Origin: an uncultured bacterium
GTDB lineage: Bacteria > CAIWAD01
DNA length: 45,563 nucleotides
Reading direction: 5' to 3'
Assembly: GCA_903910645.1 (NCBI GenBank)
Contig: CAIWAD010000113.1
Coordinates: 1-45,563 of the forward strand
Shown in pieces: positions 1-8,230 of the stretch; positions within the stretch are counted from its first letter, which is position 1; each line of letters opens with the position of its first letter. A program made the position numbers and the translations under genes. Under the pieces are notes generated by a model. That model did not search any database. It was given only the letters and a program-made list of their open reading frames with translations, and was not told the origin of the DNA.

Positions 1-833
1 ACGCTGAAGATCATGCCCAGGGTGGAGGCCCAACCCGGCAGGGCCGTGTAATGCAGGTGATGCGGACCGGCCCAGATGTACATGAAGACCAGGGTCCAGA
101 AGTGCAGGATGGACAGGCGGTAGCTGAACACCGGCCGCTCCGCCGCCTTGGGCAGGAAGTAATACATCATGCCCAGGATGGGGGTGGTCAGGAAGAAGGC
201 CACGGCGTTGTGCCCGTACCACCACTGCATGAAGGCGTCCTGCACGCCGCTGTAGATGCTGTAGCTCTTCAAGGGGCCGGCAATGACCCACAGGTTGTTG
301 AAGATGTGCAGGATGGCGATGGTGATGATGGTGGCGATGTAGAACCACAGCGCCACATAAAGGTGCCGCTCCCGGCGCTTCCAGATGGTGCCGAAGAAAT
401 TCACCGCGAACACCACCCAGATGAGCGCGATGGCGATGTCGATGGGCCACTCCAGCTCCGCGTACTCGCGGCTCTGCGTGTAGCCGAAGGGCAGGGTGAG
501 CGCCGCCGACACAATGATCAGCTGCCAGCCCCAGAAGTGGATGTTGGACAGCAGGTCGTTGAACATGCGCGCCTTCAGCAGACGCTGGGTGCTGTAGTAC
601 ACACCGGCGAACATGCTGTTGCCCACAAAGGCAAAGATGACCGCGTTGGTGTGCAGGGGACGGAGGCGTCCGAAGGTGAGGAAGGGCAGATCGAAGCTGA
701 GGTTGGGCCAGATCAGCTGCAAAGCGATGATCAAGCCCACCAGCATGCCCACCACGCCCCACAGGAGCGTGGCCATCACGAATTTGCGGACGACGCCGTC
801 GTTGTAGGAGAACTGCTCAATGCGTGCGCTCAT
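1..833 (-). CDS. ccoN: cbb3-type cytochrome c oxidase subunit I (CcoN), 3'-truncated by window edge
   Basis: Catalytic subunit of the high-affinity cbb3 terminal oxidase in the inner membrane, which reduces O2 to water using electrons from c-type cytochromes. The frame is open from the ATG at 833 to the window edge, giving 277 residues of a protein normally near 480. The heme b ligand motif RPLHTNAV (His61) is visible. So are the CuB ligands in [11 protein letters not shown] (His208) and AGPHHLHYT (His258, His259), and the probable cross-linked Tyr252 in MYIWAG. These positions fit the known CcoN pattern (His207, Tyr251, His257/258 in Pseudomonas stutzeri). Several hydrophobic helices are present. 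The start has a good ribosome site (AGGGAGG, 4 nt upstream). It is divergent from a Crp/Fnr-type gene across two Fnr-like dyads, which suggests induction under low oxygen. ccoO and ccoP would be expected downstream, outside the window. Confidence 0.95.
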
Positions 834-916
834 GGCACCTCCCTGAATGCGGACTTTCGTCGTGACAAGCGGCGGATCAATGCGCAAGTTTAAGGAACAA
901 CAGGTTGGGTTTACAC

Positions 917-949
917 GACCTTTGTCAGACGACAGCTTGACAAAGGTCA
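917..949. promoter_or_regulatory. Two Fnr/Dnr-type operator dyads in the ccoN/regulator divergent region
   Basis: GACCTTTGTCA (917-927) and TGACAAAGGTC (938-948) form a perfect 11-bp inverted repeat with a 10-nt spacer. Each arm, read with its next base, is itself an Fnr-type dyad (TGAC-N4-GTCA): TGACAAAGGTCA at 938-949, and the complement of 917-928, TGACAAAGGTCG. The dyad centres are 21 bp apart, two helical turns. Fnr-family proteins recognise TTGA-N6-TCAA-like sites, so these are probably bound by the adjacent regulator and may control both divergent genes. Binding is inferred. Confidence 0.6.
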
Positions 950-993: not shown

Positions 994-1746
994 ATGAGAG
1001 CCACTTCCGCCACCCTTGGCACTCAGTCGGGCACAGCCCCGACTCATGCCGCGCTGGAGGCCTGTGACCATTGCCCCCACATCAACAGCGCTTGCTGGAG
1101 TCTGGCAGACAGCCAGGGGCTTGGGCTGTTGGAGGAGTATCGCACGGTATTGAATCTGGCCCCCGGCCAGTTCCTTTTCCACGAGCACGCCCCCTGCCAT
1201 GGCCTGCATTGCGTGGCCAGCGGTTTGCTGGCCCTGCGCAAGTCCGATGGTGAAGGCAACAGCGTCATCCTGCGACTGGCCCATCCCGGCGAGATCCTGG
1301 GTTTTCCCGCCTACAGTGGCCACATGCCCTACCTGGCCAGCGCGGAAGCCCTGCAGGAGTGCAGGATCTGCTTCTTCCCCAGCCGCCTGCTGGACACGCT
1401 GATGGACCGCGTGCCCGCCCTGCGCAGTGAGTTCGCGCGCCTCCTGGCCCTGGAGCTGAAAGGCTACGGCGAAGCCCGCCTGCACATGGCCACCCGCACG
1501 GTGGAGACCCGCCTGCTGGATTTGCTGGCCCACCTGATGCCCAGCTGTGGCCGCGTGGACGAGGACGGCCTTGGCGCCTGGCTGGACCTGCCTTTGGCCC
1601 GTCGGGATCTGGCCGCCATGTTGGGCGTGCGCCCCGAAACAGTGGCGCGCAGCTTGCGCCACTTGTCCGCCCAGGGCCTGGCGGATTTCCACGGCCGGGA
1701 AGTGCGCATCCCCGATCTGCGCCGCCTGCGCAAGGACAGACGCTGA
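994..1746 (+). CDS. Crp/Fnr-family transcriptional regulator with N-terminal cysteine motif
   Basis: Predicted oxygen- or redox-responsive transcription factor of 250 residues from this start. An N-terminal cysteine cluster C-x2-C-x6-C (Cys24, Cys27, Cys34) precedes a cyclic-nucleotide-binding-like beta barrel. A further cysteine pair sits near LQECRICFF, in the central region where Fnr has its fourth cluster ligand. The C-terminal winged helix-turn-helix has the recognition helix RPETVARSL. Its Glu and Arg match those in Fnr (ETISR) that read TTGA half-sites, while the Fnr Ser is Ala. Fnr spacing is C-x2-C-x5-C, so an iron-sulfur cluster is plausible but unproven. The frame is open further upstream, with an ATG at 949 and the open frame reaching 847, but those starts would overlap the operator dyads. 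The ATG at 994 gives the usual family length, though its ribosome site is weak. It is divergent from ccoN. Confidence 0.85.
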
Positions 1747-1801: not shown

Positions 1802-1867
1802 ACTACTCTTGCATAGGAGTTAATGGACTCCACCCTTAACCTTCAGCTGATCAAAAACGAGGTGCCC

Positions 1868-2407
1868 ATGAAGCGCGTGTGCCTGCTCTTGGCCTGTTTG
1901 TGGCTTGCCGGTTGCGGCGGTGGCGGCGAGGATCAAAGTGGCGGAACGAATGCCCCCGCGGCGGGACAGTCCGCCGTGCAGGACGATGTGTCCCAGAAGG
2001 ACATTTTGAAGGTGGCGGCGGGCAGCCCCGACCACGGCACCCTGGTGAAGGCCGTGCAGGCCGCCGGTCTGGTGGACGCCCTGGCCAACGCCGGGCCCTT
2101 CACGGTGTTCGCACCGGTGGACGCCGCGTTCGCCGCGCTGCCCGCGGGCGCGCTGGACGACTTGCTGAAGCCGGAGAACAAGGACAAGCTGAAGACCATC
2201 CTCTACCACCATGTGACCACCAGCGCCCTTGGGGTGGAGAGCTTCCAGGACGGCCAGACCCTGGGCATGGTGGATGGCAGCTCCGCCGCCATCACCAAGG
2301 CGGGGGATGTGGTCTCCATTGACGGCCACAAGATCCTGGCCAGCGTGAAGGCCTCCAACGGCATGGTGCATGTCATTGACGCCGTGCTGCTGCCGCCGAC
2401 GAAGTGA
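1868..2407 (+). CDS. Fasciclin (FAS1) domain lipoprotein
   Basis: Exported lipoprotein of 179 residues carrying one FAS1 (beta-Ig-H3) domain. The N-terminus MKRVCLLLACLWLAGC is a lipoprotein signal with a lipobox ending in Cys (LAGC), followed by a Gly-rich and polar linker. The FAS1 domain fills the rest: DILKVAAGSPDHGTLVKAV opens it, GPFTVFAPVDAAFAALP is the H1 motif, and HVIDAVLLP matches the terminal H2 motif. FAS1 domains mediate adhesion or surface interactions, but the partner is unknown. The frame is open upstream to an ATG at 1823 with its own AGGAG, but only the 1868 start puts the signal peptide at the N-terminus; GAGG precedes it. It follows the Crp/Fnr gene by 121 bases and ends in a strong bidirectional terminator. 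Confidence 0.92.
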   Translation: MKRVCLLLACLWLAGCGGGGEDQSGGTNAPAAGQSAVQDDVSQKDILKVAAGSPDHGTLVKAVQAAGLVDALANAGPFTVFAPVDAAFAALPAGALDDLLKPENKDKLKTILYHHVTTSALGVESFQDGQTLGMVDGSSAAITKAGDVVSIDGHKILASVKASNGMVHVIDAVLLPPTK

Positions 2408-2430
2408 TCCCAACATCATCCACCCAATGC

Positions 2431-2457
2431 AAAAGCCCGGCACGCAGCCGGGCTTTT
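2431..2457. terminator. Bidirectional hairpin terminator between the FAS1 gene and the RND pump
   Basis: AAAAGCCCGG (2431-2440) pairs perfectly with CCGGGCTTTT (2448-2457) around a 7-nt loop. The A-tract and T-tract flanks let it work on both strands, between two convergent genes. Confidence 0.9.
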
Positions 2458-2477
2458 GTTTGGATCCCATGGGTGTC

Positions 2478-5400
2478 TCAAGCAGGCGGGGCCACCGCGC
2501 TCCTTCCCCACCACAGCTGGTAGAGGGTGGGCAGCACCAGCAGGGTGAGCAGGCTGGAGGTGACCAGGCCGCCCATCACCACCACGGCCAGGGGTTTTTG
2601 AATGTCCGCGCCGGAGCCCGTGGCGTACAACATGGGCAGGTGGCCAATGAAACTGGTCAGGGCCGTCATGAGGAGGGGACGGAAGCGCAGGTCGCAGCCT
2701 GTGCGGATCACCTCGCCCAAAGGCCGTCCCTCCTGGCGCAACTGGCGGAAGAAAGCCACCAACACCACACCATTCTGCACCGCCACACCCAGGAGCACAA
2801 TGAAGGCCACCGCCGCCGACACGCTTAAGGGCATGCCAAAGGCCAGCACCGCCAGCACGCCTCCCACCAGGGCGAAGGGCAGGTTGAGCAGCACCAGCAG
2901 GGAATCCGCCACCGTGCCCAGCGCCAGGAAGAGCAGCACCAGAATGAGCAACAGGGCCACTGGCACCACCAGCCCCAGCTGGCGCATGGCACGCTGCTGG
3001 TTTTCAAACTGGCCGCCATACTCCAAATGGTAACCGGTGGGAAGGCGCTCCTCCAGTGGGTGCAGCCCTTCCTTCACCTCCTCCACGAAGCCACCCAGAT
3101 CACGGCCACGCACATTGGCCTCCGCCACCACGCGGCGCATGCCGTTCTCCCGGCTGATCTGCATGGGAGTCTCCACCTGGCGGAACTCCGCCAGCTGTCC
3201 CAGGGGCACACGCTCACCGCCGGGAGCCGCCACCAGCAATTGCTGCAGGGCCTCGCGGGTGGAGCGGGCGTGCTCCGGATAGCGCACCACCACTGCCGTG
3301 CGCATCTGGCCTTCAATCAGCGTGGTGGCCTGCCGTCCCGCCACCGCCAGCTCGATGGTGGCGTGGATGTCCGCCACGCGAATGCCATGGCGCGCCGCGG
3401 CCCGACGATCCACCACCACATCCAACTGGGTCATGCCGGAGACCTGCTCCACTTTCACATCCGTGGAACCCTCCACGCCCTGCAGAACGGCGGCGGCCTC
3501 GTCGGCCAGACCCTTCAACACCTCCAGATCCGGGCCGAAGATCTTCACCGCCAGATCACTCTTCACACCACTGATCAGCTCGTTCACACGCAGGGCAATG
3601 GGTTGGGAGAAGCTGTAGCGCAGGCCCGGCACAGTCGCCAAATCCTGCTGCATGGCCTCCACCAACCCAGCCTTGTCCCGCCCTGTTTCCCACTGTCTGC
3701 GTGGTTTGAGCAGGATGATGAGATCCGTCTGTTCCGGGCCCATGGGGTCCTCGCTGATCTCCGCGCGGCCCGTCTTGCTCACCACGGTCTCCACTTCGGG
3801 GAAGGCCAGCAGACGCCGCTCCAGCAGTCCCGCCACGGTGACAGAGCCCTCCAGCGAGGCGTTGGGCAGGCGCACCACATTGATGGCGATGGCGCCTTCA
3901 TCCAGCGGTGGCATGAACTCCGTTCCCAGAAAGGGCAGCGCCGCCGCGCTGGCGGCCAGCACACCCAGGGCAAGAGCCAGCGTGGCTCCCGGCTTGCGCA
4001 GGGAGCGGTCCAGCACGCGCAGGTAAGCGGCGTGCAGGCGGCGGGTGAAGGCGAAGCTCTTCTCCGGCTCCCGCTTCAGCAGCATGTCGGACACCACGGG
4101 CACCAGGGTGAAGGCCACCAGCAGACTTCCCATCAGGGCGATGAGCATGGTGGAGGCCAGGGGCGCGAACATTTTGCCCTCAATGCCCTGCAGAGTGTAG
4201 AGCGGCACCAGGATGATGGCCACGATGAGCACGGAGAAGGCCACCGGGCGGGCCACTTCCGCCGTGGCGCGGGCCACCACCTCCCGGGTGGCGCGGCCAG
4301 GATCCGCATGGGCCAGATGGCGTCTCACATTCTCCACCACCACAATGGACGCATCCACCACCATGCCCACGGAAAAGGCCAATCCGCCCAAACTCATGAG
4401 GTTGGAGCTTAGGCCCGTCCAGCCCATCACCAGGAAGCTGGCCAGGAAGGTCAGGGGCAGGCTGAGCACCACGATGAGGGCCGTGCGCAGCTCCGCCAGG
4501 AAAAGGAAAAGCACCAGGATGACGAAGAGACCGCCTTCCAGCAGGGCGTCGCGCACGGTGTGGATGCAGGCCTCAATGAGGCTGGTGCGGTCGTAGAAGA
4601 CATTCAGGCGCACGCCATCGGGCAGGGTGCCGCGCACGCGCTCCAGGGTCTGGTTCACGCGCTCCACCACATCCTGGGCATTCTCGCCCTTGAGCATGAT
4701 GATCATGCCCGCCACGGCTTCGCCCTTGCCATCCCGCGTCACCGCGCCCTGGCGGGTCTCCGAGCCGATCACCACTTGTGCAATGTCCCGCACCAGAATT
4801 GGCGTGCCGTCCCGGGCGCGCAGCACCACCTCCTCCACATCCCGCGGCGCCTCCAGCATGCCCACGCCGCGCAGCCAGGTCTGCTCCCAGCCCTGCACCA
4901 CCACACCGCCCCCGGCGTTGGCGTTGCCCGCATCCAGCGCCACGGCCACATCATCCAGGGTCAGGCCGTGGGCGAGCAACTTGTCCGGATCCACCAGCAC
5001 CTGCACCTGGCGCACCAGTCCGCCAAAGGAGTTCACCTCGTTCACGCCGGGAACCGGCTTCAGAAGCGGGGCCACCAGCCAGTCCTGCACGGAGCGCAGG
5101 GCCATGGCGTCCAGGGAATCGCTTTCCAGGGTGTATTGAAAAATCTCTCCCAGCCCTGTGGAGATGGGCCCCAGCTCCGGCTCCACGCCGGGCGGCAGCT
5201 GCTCGCGCGCCCCGGCCAGACGCTCGAAGACCTGTTGGCGTGTCCAGTAGGTGTCGGCGCCGTCCTCGAAAATCACCACCACCTGGGAGAGCCCTGCCTT
5301 GGACAGACTGCGCACCTGGGTGACCCGGGGCAGGCCGCGCATGGCCTGTTCAATGGGCCAGCTCACGCGGTCCTCCACATCGGTGGCGGCCAGGCCGGGC

Positions 5401-5552
5401 GCCTGGCTAAGCACCATCACCTGGGTGTTGGTCACATCGGGAAAGGCGTCAATGGGCAGGGCCTTCCAGGCCACGGCGCCCGCCACCGCCAGCACAATGG
5501 CCGCCAGCACCACCAACAGGCGATGCCGCAGCAGGATGTTCATGAATGGCAT
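2478..5552 (-). CDS. Heavy-metal efflux RND pump, CzcA/CusA family
   Basis: Inner-membrane proton-driven RND transporter of 1024 residues, the usual length, forming a tripartite metal pump with the two upstream genes. The N-terminus is family-typical: a first helix, then LPIDAFPDVTNTQVMVLSQA. A large periplasmic loop, helices 2-6, a second loop and terminal helices follow. The proton-relay helix reads GMVVDASIVVVENVRRH. It keeps the second Asp and the Glu of the CzcA motif DFGIIVDGAVVIVEN, but the first Asp position is Ser. CusA-type pumps also lack that Asp, so metal specificity (Cu/Ag versus Co/Zn/Cd) is open. The ATG at 5552 has AAGGAG upstream. It is last in the operon, 9 bases after the adaptor gene, and ends just before the shared terminator. 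Confidence 0.95.
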   Translation of the reverse strand: MPFMNILLRHRLLVVLAAIVLAVAGAVAWKALPIDAFPDVTNTQVMVLSQAPGLAATDVEDRVSWPIEQAMRGLPRVTQVRSLSKAGLSQVVVIFEDGADTYWTRQQVFERLAGAREQLPPGVEPELGPISTGLGEIFQYTLESDSLDAMALRSVQDWLVAPLLKPVPGVNEVNSFGGLVRQVQVLVDPDKLLAHGLTLDDVAVALDAGNANAGGGVVVQGWEQTWLRGVGMLEAPRDVEEVVLRARDGTPILVRDIAQVVIGSETRQGAVTRDGKGEAVAGMIIMLKGENAQDVVERVNQTLERVRGTLPDGVRLNVFYDRTSLIEACIHTVRDALLEGGLFVILVLFLFLAELRTALIVVLSLPLTFLASFLVMGWTGLSSNLMSLGGLAFSVGMVVDASIVVVENVRRHLAHADPGRATREVVARATAEVARPVAFSVLIVAIILVPLYTLQGIEGKMFAPLASTMLIALMGSLLVAFTLVPVVSDMLLKREPEKSFAFTRRLHAAYLRVLDRSLRKPGATLALALGVLAASAAALPFLGTEFMPPLDEGAIAINVVRLPNASLEGSVTVAGLLERRLLAFPEVETVVSKTGRAEISEDPMGPEQTDLIILLKPRRQWETGRDKAGLVEAMQQDLATVPGLRYSFSQPIALRVNELISGVKSDLAVKIFGPDLEVLKGLADEAAAVLQGVEGSTDVKVEQVSGMTQLDVVVDRRAAARHGIRVADIHATIELAVAGRQATTLIEGQMRTAVVVRYPEHARSTREALQQLLVAAPGGERVPLGQLAEFRQVETPMQISRENGMRRVVAEANVRGRDLGGFVEEVKEGLHPLEERLPTGYHLEYGGQFENQQRAMRQLGLVVPVALLLILVLLFLALGTVADSLLVLLNLPFALVGGVLAVLAFGMPLSVSAAVAFIVLLGVAVQNGVVLVAFFRQLRQEGRPLGEVIRTGCDLRFRPLLMTALTSFIGHLPMLYATGSGADIQKPLAVVVMGGLVTSSLLTLLVLPTLYQLWWGRSAVAPPA

Positions 5553-5561
5553 GGTGTCTCC

Positions 5562-6899
5562 TTAGTCCGCGCAGCCTGCGCCCATCTTGGAGCGCAGCAC
5601 ATCGGATTTAAGCAGGAAGCAGCCCTGTGCCACCACCTTGTCCATGCCTTCCGGGGCGGACAGCAGCTCCACCCAGCCCGCCCAGCGGCGTCCCGGTGTC
5701 ACAGGGCGCCGCACGAAGTAATCCTCCACGGCGGGCACGAACACGAAGAAGCGCCCCTCGTCCTCCAGCAGCGCGTCCTCCGGCAAGGCCGCCACTGTCT
5801 CGCTGCCCGGCTGGAAGACCTCCACCTGGGCGAACATGCCCGCCATCAGGCGCTGTCCTCCGTTGTCCACGGCCACGCGCAGGCGTGCCGTGCGCCGCTC
5901 CGTGTCCAGGGCCGGGGACAGGAAATCCACACGCCCCACAAAGGTCTCCCCTGGCCAGGCCTGCACGCGGATGCGGGCCGTGCGGCCCTCCACCGATTGG
6001 CCTCCCAAAGACGCCAGATCCCGCTCATAGACATCGCACCACACCCACAAGGCGCGACTGTCTCCCACGGTGGCCAGGGCCTCCTCCGGATGCACACTCT
6101 CCCCCGGCACAGCGTGCAGGCTTAACACCACACCCGCCTCCGGTGCCCGCAAGGCCACCAAACCGCGCGCCTCGCCGGACTTCATGGCGCGCACGGCGGC
6201 GGGATCCAGGCCCAGCCAGCTCAAGCGGCCCCGGGCCGTCTCCACCCGCAGGCGGGCCAGCTCCAGCTCCTGGCGGCTGCGCTGAAACTCCCGCTCCGAG
6301 CTGACCTCCTGGGCACGCAGATCCGCCACGCGCTCGTGCTCGCGCTGGGCCAATCGCTCCTCGGCTTCCGCCTCCAGGAAGCGTTCCTGGGCCTCCGCCG
6401 CCTCCGCGCTTTCGATCTCCAGCAAGAGCTGGCCCCTGCCTACACGGGAACCCAGGCGCACATGGGTGCGACGCACCACGCCGCTCACCACGGCACTCAC
6501 ATGGCTGACGCGCTCCTCATCAAAGGCCACCTGCCCGGTCAAGGGAACAGCGCTCTCCACCGCGCGCTTCTCCAGACTGGCCAAGCGCAGGGTGCCATCC
6601 TTGAACAAGTCCCGTGGCGCGCGCGCCACGCCCACCTCGTAGCGGCATTCCTCGCAGGTGTAGGTCTTGCGCTCGTGCTCGCAGGAGGCCTCCAGCAGCT
6701 CCTGCACGGACAGATCCAGATCCGAGGCCTCGGCCCCGTGCTCCACATCGCCGTGTCCCTCGTGCTCACCAGGCCCATCCACAGCCACGGCGCTGCTGTC
6801 CGCTTTCACCTCCGACGTGGCACGATCATCTCCGCAAGACAGCCACAACACACTGTTCAGGGCCAATAGCAGCAGGCCCGTTATGCTCAGGACTTTCAT
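5562..6899 (-). CDS. RND efflux membrane fusion protein, CzcB/CusB family, with Cys/His-rich N-terminus
   Basis: Periplasmic adaptor linking the RND pump to the outer-membrane channel. The N-terminus has a hydrophobic leader ending in LSCG, likely a lipoprotein or export signal. A His/Glu-rich stretch follows (GEHEGHGDVEHG), then a Cys-rich segment with CEH and TYTCEECRYEVGVA at about residues 75-93. That segment resembles metal-binding modules of heavy-metal adaptors. Next come a barrel-sandwich (lipoyl-like) half near VSHVSAVVSGVVRRTHV, a coiled-coil hairpin (about 165-215, rich in Glu, Arg, Leu), and the second half with beta-barrel domains. The last stretch FLLKSDVLRSKMGAGC is common in CzcB proteins. 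The ATG at 6899 overlaps the channel gene stop by 4 bases (ATGA), implying translational coupling. A GTG two codons earlier is possible. Confidence 0.93.
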   Translation of the reverse strand: MKVLSITGLLLLALNSVLWLSCGDDRATSEVKADSSAVAVDGPGEHEGHGDVEHGAEASDLDLSVQELLEASCEHERKTYTCEECRYEVGVARAPRDLFKDGTLRLASLEKRAVESAVPLTGQVAFDEERVSHVSAVVSGVVRRTHVRLGSRVGRGQLLLEIESAEAAEAQERFLEAEAEERLAQREHERVADLRAQEVSSEREFQRSRQELELARLRVETARGRLSWLGLDPAAVRAMKSGEARGLVALRAPEAGVVLSLHAVPGESVHPEEALATVGDSRALWVWCDVYERDLASLGGQSVEGRTARIRVQAWPGETFVGRVDFLSPALDTERRTARLRVAVDNGGQRLMAGMFAQVEVFQPGSETVAALPEDALLEDEGRFFVFVPAVEDYFVRRPVTPGRRWAGWVELLSAPEGMDKVVAQGCFLLKSDVLRSKMGAGCAD

Positions 6900-8161
6900 T
6901 TCCACTCCCTTTCATCCAGCAGATCCAGCCGCAGGCCTTCCACATGGGCCTTGGTCAGCAGCCCGGCCGCCTTGCGTTGGCATTCCCCCAGTTGACGCCG
7001 GGCTTCCAGAGTCTCGAAGAGGCTGGCCTCGCCCAGACTCCAGGCTTTCTGCAACGCCTCGGCGGCCTGCTCGGCATGGGGAAGCATGTCCTCCACCACC
7101 AGACGCGCAGCTTGCAGCGTGGCGTCCAGTTCCAGGGCAAGGGCCTTGCGTTCGGCCAGCAAGTCCCGTCGTTCCAGGTCCAGTCCAGCCTGGGAAGCCG
7201 TCTCCACGGCGCGGGCGGCCCGGCGCTCTCCCGTCTTCAAATTGAGCACGGGGAGAGTCCAGCCCAGCCCCAGGCTGCGCTGGGTGCGTCCCAAACTGGA
7301 CTCCGCCACCGCCACCAGGGCAAGGCCTTCGCTCCACCCGCCTTGCAGTTGGGCCCGGCTGGCTGCCGCATCATCCACGCGGCACTTGGCCGCCACCAGA
7401 CGGGGATGTCCACCGGGAAAGGCATCATTGGCCGTGGAAGGAATTGGCAAGGGGAGCCGCCGCAAATCCTCCCAGGTTTGGCTGGGAAGGTCGGTCCACT
7501 TCCATGCCTGAGCACGGACGCTCCAGCTTTCCCACTCCGCCGCGCTTTGGATGGAGTCCACGCGCGCCACTTGACAGGCCAGCCAGGCGCGATGGGCCTC
7601 CAACGGCCGCAATTCACCCACCTGCACCCGGGCTTCCACTGCGCGTGCCAAGGCCTCTTCACGCTTCAGGAGCCCGCTGGTGATCTCCATTTCCGCCTGC
7701 AGACGCAGACCCTCCCACCACAGGGCGCCGGCTTCCTCCATCAGCTCCCGGCGCAGGATTTCACGCTCGGCTTCCGCCAGGCGCAGGGCCGCCTGGCCTC
7801 CCCGTTGCGCCGCGAACCGTGTAACCAGGTTCTCCAGGGGAAGACGCAGTTCCACTTCGCGTGTGGAGGCGGTGGGCTCGCCAGGGGCGGCTTGGGGGCG
7901 GGTGTGGAGCCACTGGATCTCTGGATTGGCCAGAGCCCGGGCCTGGCGCAAGCGGCCCCGCGCCTCCGCCACGGCGGCATCGGCCTGCAACCAGCGTGGA
8001 TGCCGACGCGCCGCAGCATCCAGATCCGGGAAATCGTTCCCCAGAGCAGGCGGACAGAGGCAAAAACCAAGGGCCAGCACGAGAGTGCGGGCCGAAAAGG
8101 GGAACAGGGAGGACGGCGCCTTAGGCGTTGCGCGCCTTCCCCCCACAGAAACAGCATGCAT
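6896..8161 (-). CDS. Outer-membrane efflux protein, TolC/CzcC family
   Basis: Outer-membrane channel component of the metal efflux complex, 421 residues, normal for CzcC. After an N-terminal signal region the protein is dominated by long alpha-helical repeats: AVAEARGRLRQARALANPEI in the first half and QAGLDLERRDLLAERKALA in the second. This is the duplicated coiled-coil fold of TolC-type proteins, with AWSLGEASLFETLEARRQL near the end as in CzcC. The ATG at 8161 is preferred because AAGGAG lies 7 bases upstream; an in-frame start 21 bases earlier lacks this. It follows the small Cys-rich gene by 69 bases and overlaps the adaptor gene by 4 bases. Confidence 0.92.
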   Translation of the reverse strand: MHAVSVGGRRATPKAPSSLFPFSARTLVLALGFCLCPPALGNDFPDLDAAARRHPRWLQADAAVAEARGRLRQARALANPEIQWLHTRPQAAPGEPTASTREVELRLPLENLVTRFAAQRGGQAALRLAEAEREILRRELMEEAGALWWEGLRLQAEMEITSGLLKREEALARAVEARVQVGELRPLEAHRAWLACQVARVDSIQSAAEWESWSVRAQAWKWTDLPSQTWEDLRRLPLPIPSTANDAFPGGHPRLVAAKCRVDDAAASRAQLQGGWSEGLALVAVAESSLGRTQRSLGLGWTLPVLNLKTGERRAARAVETASQAGLDLERRDLLAERKALALELDATLQAARLVVEDMLPHAEQAAEALQKAWSLGEASLFETLEARRQLGECQRKAAGLLTKAHVEGLRLDLLDEREWK

Positions 8162-8230
8162 GGACAGCTCCTTGCAAGGCAAGTGGCGGAATCCGCCGAG
8201 ACAATGGAAAGGGTCAGGTGGGGGTGGGAA

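Follow-up and report, generated by a model that had tools for sequence, protein, structure and literature searches.

A candidate FNR-type operator, conserved upstream of a cbb3 oxidase gene that is divergent from the gene of an FNR-like regulator, in an uncultured bacterium

Results

Gene layout and intergenic repeats

The stretch of DNA under study (45.6 kb, hereafter the window) begins within ccoN, the gene for subunit I of a high-affinity, cbb3-type cytochrome c oxidase. A gene for a Crp/Fnr-family regulator runs divergently from it, and the interval between the two harbors an inverted repeat made of two dyads (Table 1). An earlier note, written from the sequence, had located the repeat between ccoN and a Crp/Fnr gene, and profile matches agree with that description. 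The ccoN product matches TIGR00780 with an E value of 3.4e-118, the score lying under the full-length cut-off of 583 bits because the gene is cut by the contig end and the window holds 277 residues only. C51, a further contig of this genome, starts with an overlapping piece of ccoN, identical over 46 residues.

Table 1. Features of the ccoN–regulator region (positions in the window)
Feature	Position	Strand	Sequence or remarks
ccoN, cbb3-type cytochrome c oxidase subunit I	1-833	-	ATG 833-831; gene truncated by the contig start
Proposed ccoN core promoter	887-905	-	ACCTGTTGTTCCTTAAACT; 19 bp identical in congener G001
Proximal dyad (nearer ccoN)	916-927		CGAC-CTTT-GTCA on +, TGAC-AAAG-GTCG on -; one mismatch (CGAC) to TGAY-N4-RTCA; centre 921.5
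Inverted repeat	917-948		Arms 917-927 and 938-948
Distal dyad	938-949		TGAC-AAAG-GTCA; with flanking T, TTGACAAAGGTCA; perfect; centre 943.5
Crp/Fnr-family regulator	994-1746	+	CxxC-x6-C and a central Cys; alternative start ATG 949

The repeat is a perfect one of 11 bp, as the note had claimed, and its arms are separated by 10 bp. Of 2000 dinucleotide shuffles of the interval, 5 produced a perfect inverted repeat of 11 bp whose arms were no more than 20 bp apart; other perfect 11-bp repeats in the window, with gaps of 0-20 bp, make up eight rows (start, gap) that belong to three structures. The description of the repeat as two TGAC-N4-GTCA-type dyads 21 bp apart needs amendment: two dyads are present, with one mismatch in the left one, and their centres are 22 bp apart. 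The figure of 21 is the arm-to-arm distance of the repeat, as the dyads proper occupy 916-927 and 938-949. A dyad pair 20-24 bp apart with jointly at most one mismatch to TGAY-N4-RTCA was found in 1 of 5000 shuffles, and no second pair of that kind exists in the window; one perfect dyad alone is easier to obtain by chance (78 of 5000). Compared with the longer form TTGAY-N4-RTCAA, the distal dyad has a perfect core and one flanking base off (TTGACAAAGGTCAT), while the proximal dyad has one core mismatch. At the level of sequence, both dyads can be read as FNR operators. The distal dyad abuts the possible ATG at 949 and ends 45 bp ahead of the ATG at 994, so that it either adjoins coding sequence or sits upstream, depending on which start the regulator uses.

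On the other side of the regulator gene (1823-8182), visual inspection suggests an ORF for a fasciclin-type lipoprotein and, on the minus strand, ORFs resembling a CusA/CusB/CusC-type efflux operon. As cbb3 oxidases require copper, this neighborhood with putative Cus-type efflux ORFs may be functionally linked.

The regulator is FNR-like

Membership of the Crp/Fnr superfamily is indicated by matches to PF00027 (58.7 bits) and PF13545 (55.7 bits), both over their cut-offs, and the best solved relatives of the protein are FNR structures (E 5.4e-14). The curated NCBIfam cut-offs were not reached for FnrL (60.9 versus 300 bits) or for Fnr (54.6 versus 228 bits). Because these scores fall so far below, we regard the regulator as an FNR-like protein and not as a member of those families.

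A CxxC-x6-C motif lies near the N-terminus (the last spacing is x5 in solved FNR), and another cysteine aligns with the central cysteine of solved FNR. The regulator has, therefore, the three N-terminal cysteines plus a central one that are typical of FNR; by analogy, they may be the ligands of a [4Fe-4S] cluster. The recognition helix contains the Glu and Arg that the earlier note had pointed out (P-E-T-V-A-R). The helix reads R-P-E-T-V-A-R in the window and in the congener G001, and R-P-E-T-I-A-R in the sister genus (G003, see below); Glu and Arg are thus retained in the three family members, and the Ser of FNR is replaced by Ala in all three. The cysteine pattern of G001 is the same as that of the window, while in G003 the three N-terminal cysteines are arranged otherwise, with the third in another column.

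Linkage of the regulator to ccoN in related genomes

Relatives were sought in 60 genomes, 36 of which gave matches to the regulator at E <= 0.001. The genomes nearest to the question are the window's own (G000), a congener (G001), a congener without the regulator (G002) and a member of the sister genus that has it (G003). The best matches were in G001 (68% identity, E 5e-98) and G003 (38%, 7e-50), genomes of the same family as the window's; the next best is found in G035 (35%, 1e-27). Searches of G000-G004 located ccoN in G000, G001 and G003, each time divergent from the regulator; G002 and G004 (the latter genome 67% complete) yielded neither ccoN nor a close regulator homologue.

Among 34 loci with regulator homologues, ccoN is a neighbor in L012, L013, L014 and L073 only, and since L073 includes the L014 stretch (the contig of G003), three genomes in total show this arrangement. 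The flanks covered about 1.5 kb (4 kb for L073-L076), so that ccoN could lie farther out in other loci. Scanning genome contigs with the single regulator sequence yielded no relative, and a scan with the three-sequence alignment yielded four loci: L073, L074 and two distant ones. L074, from a metagenome-assembled genome titled Proteobacteria, encodes a 39% identical homologue and has no ccoN on its 8-kb contig. A palindrome, TTGACCTGAGTCAAG, is found there at position 4406, about 160 bp past the stop codon of the homologue.

The sites keep their distance to ccoN in a congener

If TAAACT at 892-887 of the minus strand is the -10 element of ccoN, and if transcription starts at 880, which is assumed as seven bases after the last base of TAAACT, simple arithmetic places the proximal dyad at -41.5 and the distal dyad at -63.5. 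Under that proviso, the arrangement would be that of a class II activator, whose promoters have a -10 element but lack a good -35, with an additional upstream site. When 800-1060 was scanned on either strand, no consensus sigma-70 promoter was detected; the scan favors, therefore, neither gene. The 19-bp core is fully shared by the two congeners (the window and L013), although the scan detected no sigma-70 consensus pair in it, and it may hold a lineage-specific promoter element.

The footprint was compared between two genomes, the window's and G001. A stretch of 63 bp upstream of ccoN aligns without gaps, and identity is distributed unevenly: the core is the same throughout (19/19), the proximal dyad matches at 10/12 positions and the distal dyad at 9/12, while the gap between the dyads matches at 5/10 and the spacer next to the core at 1/10. 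The distal counterpart in G001, TTGATTTTTATCAA, is a canonical FNR box. Both of its halves differ from those of the window (TGAT..ATCA in place of TGAC..GTCA), and the difference is symmetric: the fourth base pair, C:G in the window, is T:A in G001, and the four outer pairs of the dyad are kept. The proximal counterpart, TGACAAAAGCCG, lies at the same offset with two mismatches, and its pairing drops from 3/4 in the window to 2/4. Both dyads of G001 retain the 22-bp spacing and the distance to the identical 19-bp stretch before ccoN, and they are about 270-295 bp away from the likely start of the regulator gene (a GTG preceded by AAGGAG). Remoteness from the regulator together with a fixed distance to the core of ccoN points to a conserved role at ccoN.

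In G003, one clear dyad (TTGACTTAAGTCA; TTTGACTTAAGTCAC) lies between ccoN and the regulator, about midway between the two genes; the dyad pair is not, therefore, a feature of the whole family. Absence from related genomes would have spoken against the sites; the actual observation is that both occur also in G001, where the proximal one has two mismatches, and that G003 has one dyad.

Motif distribution across genomes

The earlier note had also proposed a genome-wide scan for dyad sites. In the window's own genome, the form TTGAC-N4-GTCA (TTGACNNNNGTCA) gave 11 rows versus 11 for the control; with the motif unenriched, no wider regulon is supported or claimed there. The 11 rows correspond to 10 places, and the nine beyond the window's own comprise, according to a crude gene caller, four in genes, four intergenic and one unassigned. 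Visual inspection of the first 40 residues revealed no obvious respiratory target at these nine; one neighbor, an efflux adaptor, was also searched against Pfam.

Places with TTGAY-N4-RTCAA, compared with a reversed-pattern control, numbered 2/3 in G000, 7/4 in G001, 12/2 in G002, 31/4 in G003 and 16/7 in G004. G002 and G004, in which the regulator did not turn up, also exceed their controls, so the raw excess is not specific. A contrast between G003 and G002 appears when gene position is considered: 26 of the 31 places of G003 are outside called genes (the fetched stretches averaging 75% coding), while 10 of the 12 places of G002, which lacks the regulator, are inside, a comparison that depends on a crude, home-made codon-score gene caller trained on stretches of G000, G001 and G003 and not of G002, and outside-gene counts are accordingly rough. 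As the caller picks the highest-scoring start, even the window's own site is called "inside" (start at 922). Twenty-three of the 26 outside places of G003 precede one or more called genes, and three do not. The eight places of G001 and G000 other than the ccoN site are distributed otherwise: four are intragenic, two precede efflux genes, and of the remaining two, one does not precede a gene and the other is over 500 bp away from the closest gene.

The two sites ahead of efflux genes are a palindromic TTGACCCAGGTCAA 128 bp before a gene for a HlyD/CusB-type efflux adaptor in G000 (L114; C275:14607-14620) and TTGATTCGGGTCAA 134 bp before a gene for an outer membrane efflux protein in G001 (L112). 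The efflux genes behind them are a possible shared target.

Pfam searches were made for 20 of 34 downstream proteins, a non-random sample chosen by distance and by eye (18 of 30 in G003, and one each in G001 and G000). The picks from G003 include a NapC/NirT cytochrome, FeoA, a molybdopterin oxidoreductase, a multihaem cytochrome, a hemerythrin, Sdh_cyt (the transmembrane subunit of succinate/fumarate enzymes) and YgbA_NO, as well as ferredoxin-type, radical-SAM and pyridine-nucleotide oxidoreductase proteins; the rest are PepSY_TM, AlaDh/PNT, an aminotransferase, a methylguanine methyltransferase, an outer-membrane barrel, an HD protein and two proteins without a Pfam match. The motif set of G003 looks like an anaerobic regulon. 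Because G003 encodes another Crp/Fnr protein, with an R-E-T-M-S-R helix and without an N-terminal cysteine cluster, the motif cannot be attributed with certainty to the orthologue.

A tandem search with TGAY-N4-RTCA-N10-TGAY allowing one mismatch was discarded as too loose; among the matches listed for G001, the ccoN site was the sole mismatch-free row.

Discussion

The sequence and the comparative data point to a conserved FNR-type operator at the promoter of a cbb3 oxidase. The reading that we favor, with a probability of about 0.78, is that of an ordinary operator whose tandem dyads would be bound by the neighboring regulator and would serve mainly the ccoN promoter, activating the oxidase operon. 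Other readings deserve consideration. The proximity of the distal dyad to the candidate starts of the regulator gene, and the presence of TTGACA, similar to a -35 hexamer, at 937-942, suggest that the sites might mainly control that gene, with binding at 938-949 over its start region exerting negative autoregulation. The earlier note had envisaged binding at the regulator's own region as well; this view does not fit the congener, where the sites lie hundreds of base pairs away from the regulator start while their spacing to the ccoN core is constant, and we consider that control of the regulator is unlikely to be the main function of the sites. Autoregulation alongside control of ccoN is possible, though the layout that would permit it is not conserved. 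A different question is whether the repeat acts as RNA: a hairpin might mask AAAGG, a ribosome-binding-like sequence directly before ATG 949. The repeat of the window is indeed predicted to fold stably (z -2.1 on the plus strand, -3.2 on the minus strand), and among the four pairs of the long repeat that are altered in G001, one shows a compensating change. However, no hairpin is predicted for G001 (z +0.5), the G003 stretch folds differently (z -1.6), and sites and spacing follow ccoN rather than the regulator. Furthermore, pairing of the long repeat decreases to 8/11 in G001 (three pairs lost, one of them becoming T-G) while the symmetry of the distal dyad is still perfect (4/4). Two protein-type dyads fit this combination better than one hairpin, which we view as highly improbable.

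Binding by another Crp/Fnr-family member of the same cell must also be weighed, as two further proteins of this kind are detected in G000 at E <= 0.001. Against it, the neighboring regulator is linked to ccoN in the three genomes that have ccoN, and none of seven paralogues presents three N-terminal cysteines beside the sensor domain (G000_C25 is cut before its N-terminus, and G001_C25a has CxxC). In addition, one paralogue type, present in G000, G001, G002 and G003, has Arg before Glu in its helix (R-E-T-M-S-R), a feature that goes with TGTGA-type sites in the account of PMC1274295; this type occurs also in G002, whose motif places are mostly intragenic. That another protein is the cognate regulator seems quite improbable.

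An operator for ccoN, our preferred reading, would work as follows. When oxygen drops, the regulator, probably with its [4Fe-4S] cluster assembled, would dimerize and bind TGAY-N4-RTCA. The proximal dimer, near -41.5, would overlap the -35 region and touch RNA polymerase in class II fashion. The distal dimer, near -63.5 and on nearly the same face of the DNA, could raise occupancy or add a class I contact; the 22-bp spacing would allow for cooperative binding, as proposed in the earlier note. As a consequence, the cbb3 oxidase operon would be transcribed more strongly. As the distal site reaches the 5' end of the regulator gene in this genome, its occupancy may also dampen expression of the regulator itself.

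A bolder scenario, which we regard as speculative and rather doubtful, is that the [4Fe-4S] FNR-type regulator of this genus has come to serve almost only the cbb3 operon next to it, as a private switch: dimers side by side at 22 bp would produce a steep oxygen response, the distal site, fused with the regulator 5' end, would feed back, and the sister genus would keep an ancestral, broad anaerobic regulon. The wide motif set of G003 versus the little found in G000 and G001, an apparent contrast, would make such regulon shrinkage testable. The basic mechanism is a textbook one. With this locus, the regulatory pairing of ccoN and FNR reaches a sparsely sampled lineage, and its clean footprint, with a symmetric operator change and fixed core spacing, would render oxygen control of the cbb3 oxidase predictable without cultures.

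Literature retrieved for this layout of genes and sites dealt, by its titles, with other organisms and unrelated topics only. The closest parallel is alphaproteobacterial control of ccoNOQP by FNR/FnrN-type regulators (FnrN in Sphingopyxis, FnrL in Rhodobacter), in which an FNR box lies upstream of ccoN. For Sphingopyxis, excerpts of PMC7713065 give the Fnr box as TTGAc/t-N4-g/aTCAA, center most boxes, that of ccoN included, near -41.5, describe a third cysteine shifted by two in the FnrN group, and list Glu, Ser and Arg as important residues of the FNR recognition helix. In R. capsulatus, excerpts of PMC4634722 place one site bound by FnrL some 100 bp ahead of the start of ccoN, to be compared with about 89 and 111 bp for the dyads described here, and a second one inside ccoN; fnrL itself is among the listed FnrL targets. 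Judging from the locus numbers in these excerpts, fnr is also near ccoN in Sphingopyxis (2447 and 2449) and R. sphaeroides (0698 and 0696), while fnrL is away from ccoN in R. capsulatus, unlike the arrangement in the window. The window differs from the Sphingopyxis and Rhodobacter systems, as far as the excerpts describe them, in having two dyads 22 bp apart, a regulator far under the Fnr and FnrL cut-offs, and Ala for Ser in the helix. The regulator is divergent from ccoN here, whereas the divergent neighbors named in these excerpts are ompW and uspA.

The operator letters are shared with HcpR1, whose site is TTGACnnnnGTCAA and which has Ser or Pro at position 180, preceding the helix Glu, according to the excerpt of PMC1274295. 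The P-E-x-x-x-R helix of the window's regulator fits the correlation reported there between Pro/Ser-180 and TTGAC-N4-GTCAA. HcpR1, as portrayed in that excerpt, lacks FNR-type cysteines and controls hcp, whereas the regulator of the window has such cysteines and its proposed target is ccoN. The tandem arrangement itself is reminiscent of E. coli yfiD, where an excerpt of PMC11264516 describes one FNR site near -41.5 and another upstream. The 2003 work of Barnard, Green and Busby, as summarized in the same excerpt, indicates that artificial tandem FNR promoters accept many upstream positions, and the second site of the window, putatively near -63.5, would fall outside the -85 to -95 range in which tandem FNR sites repress.
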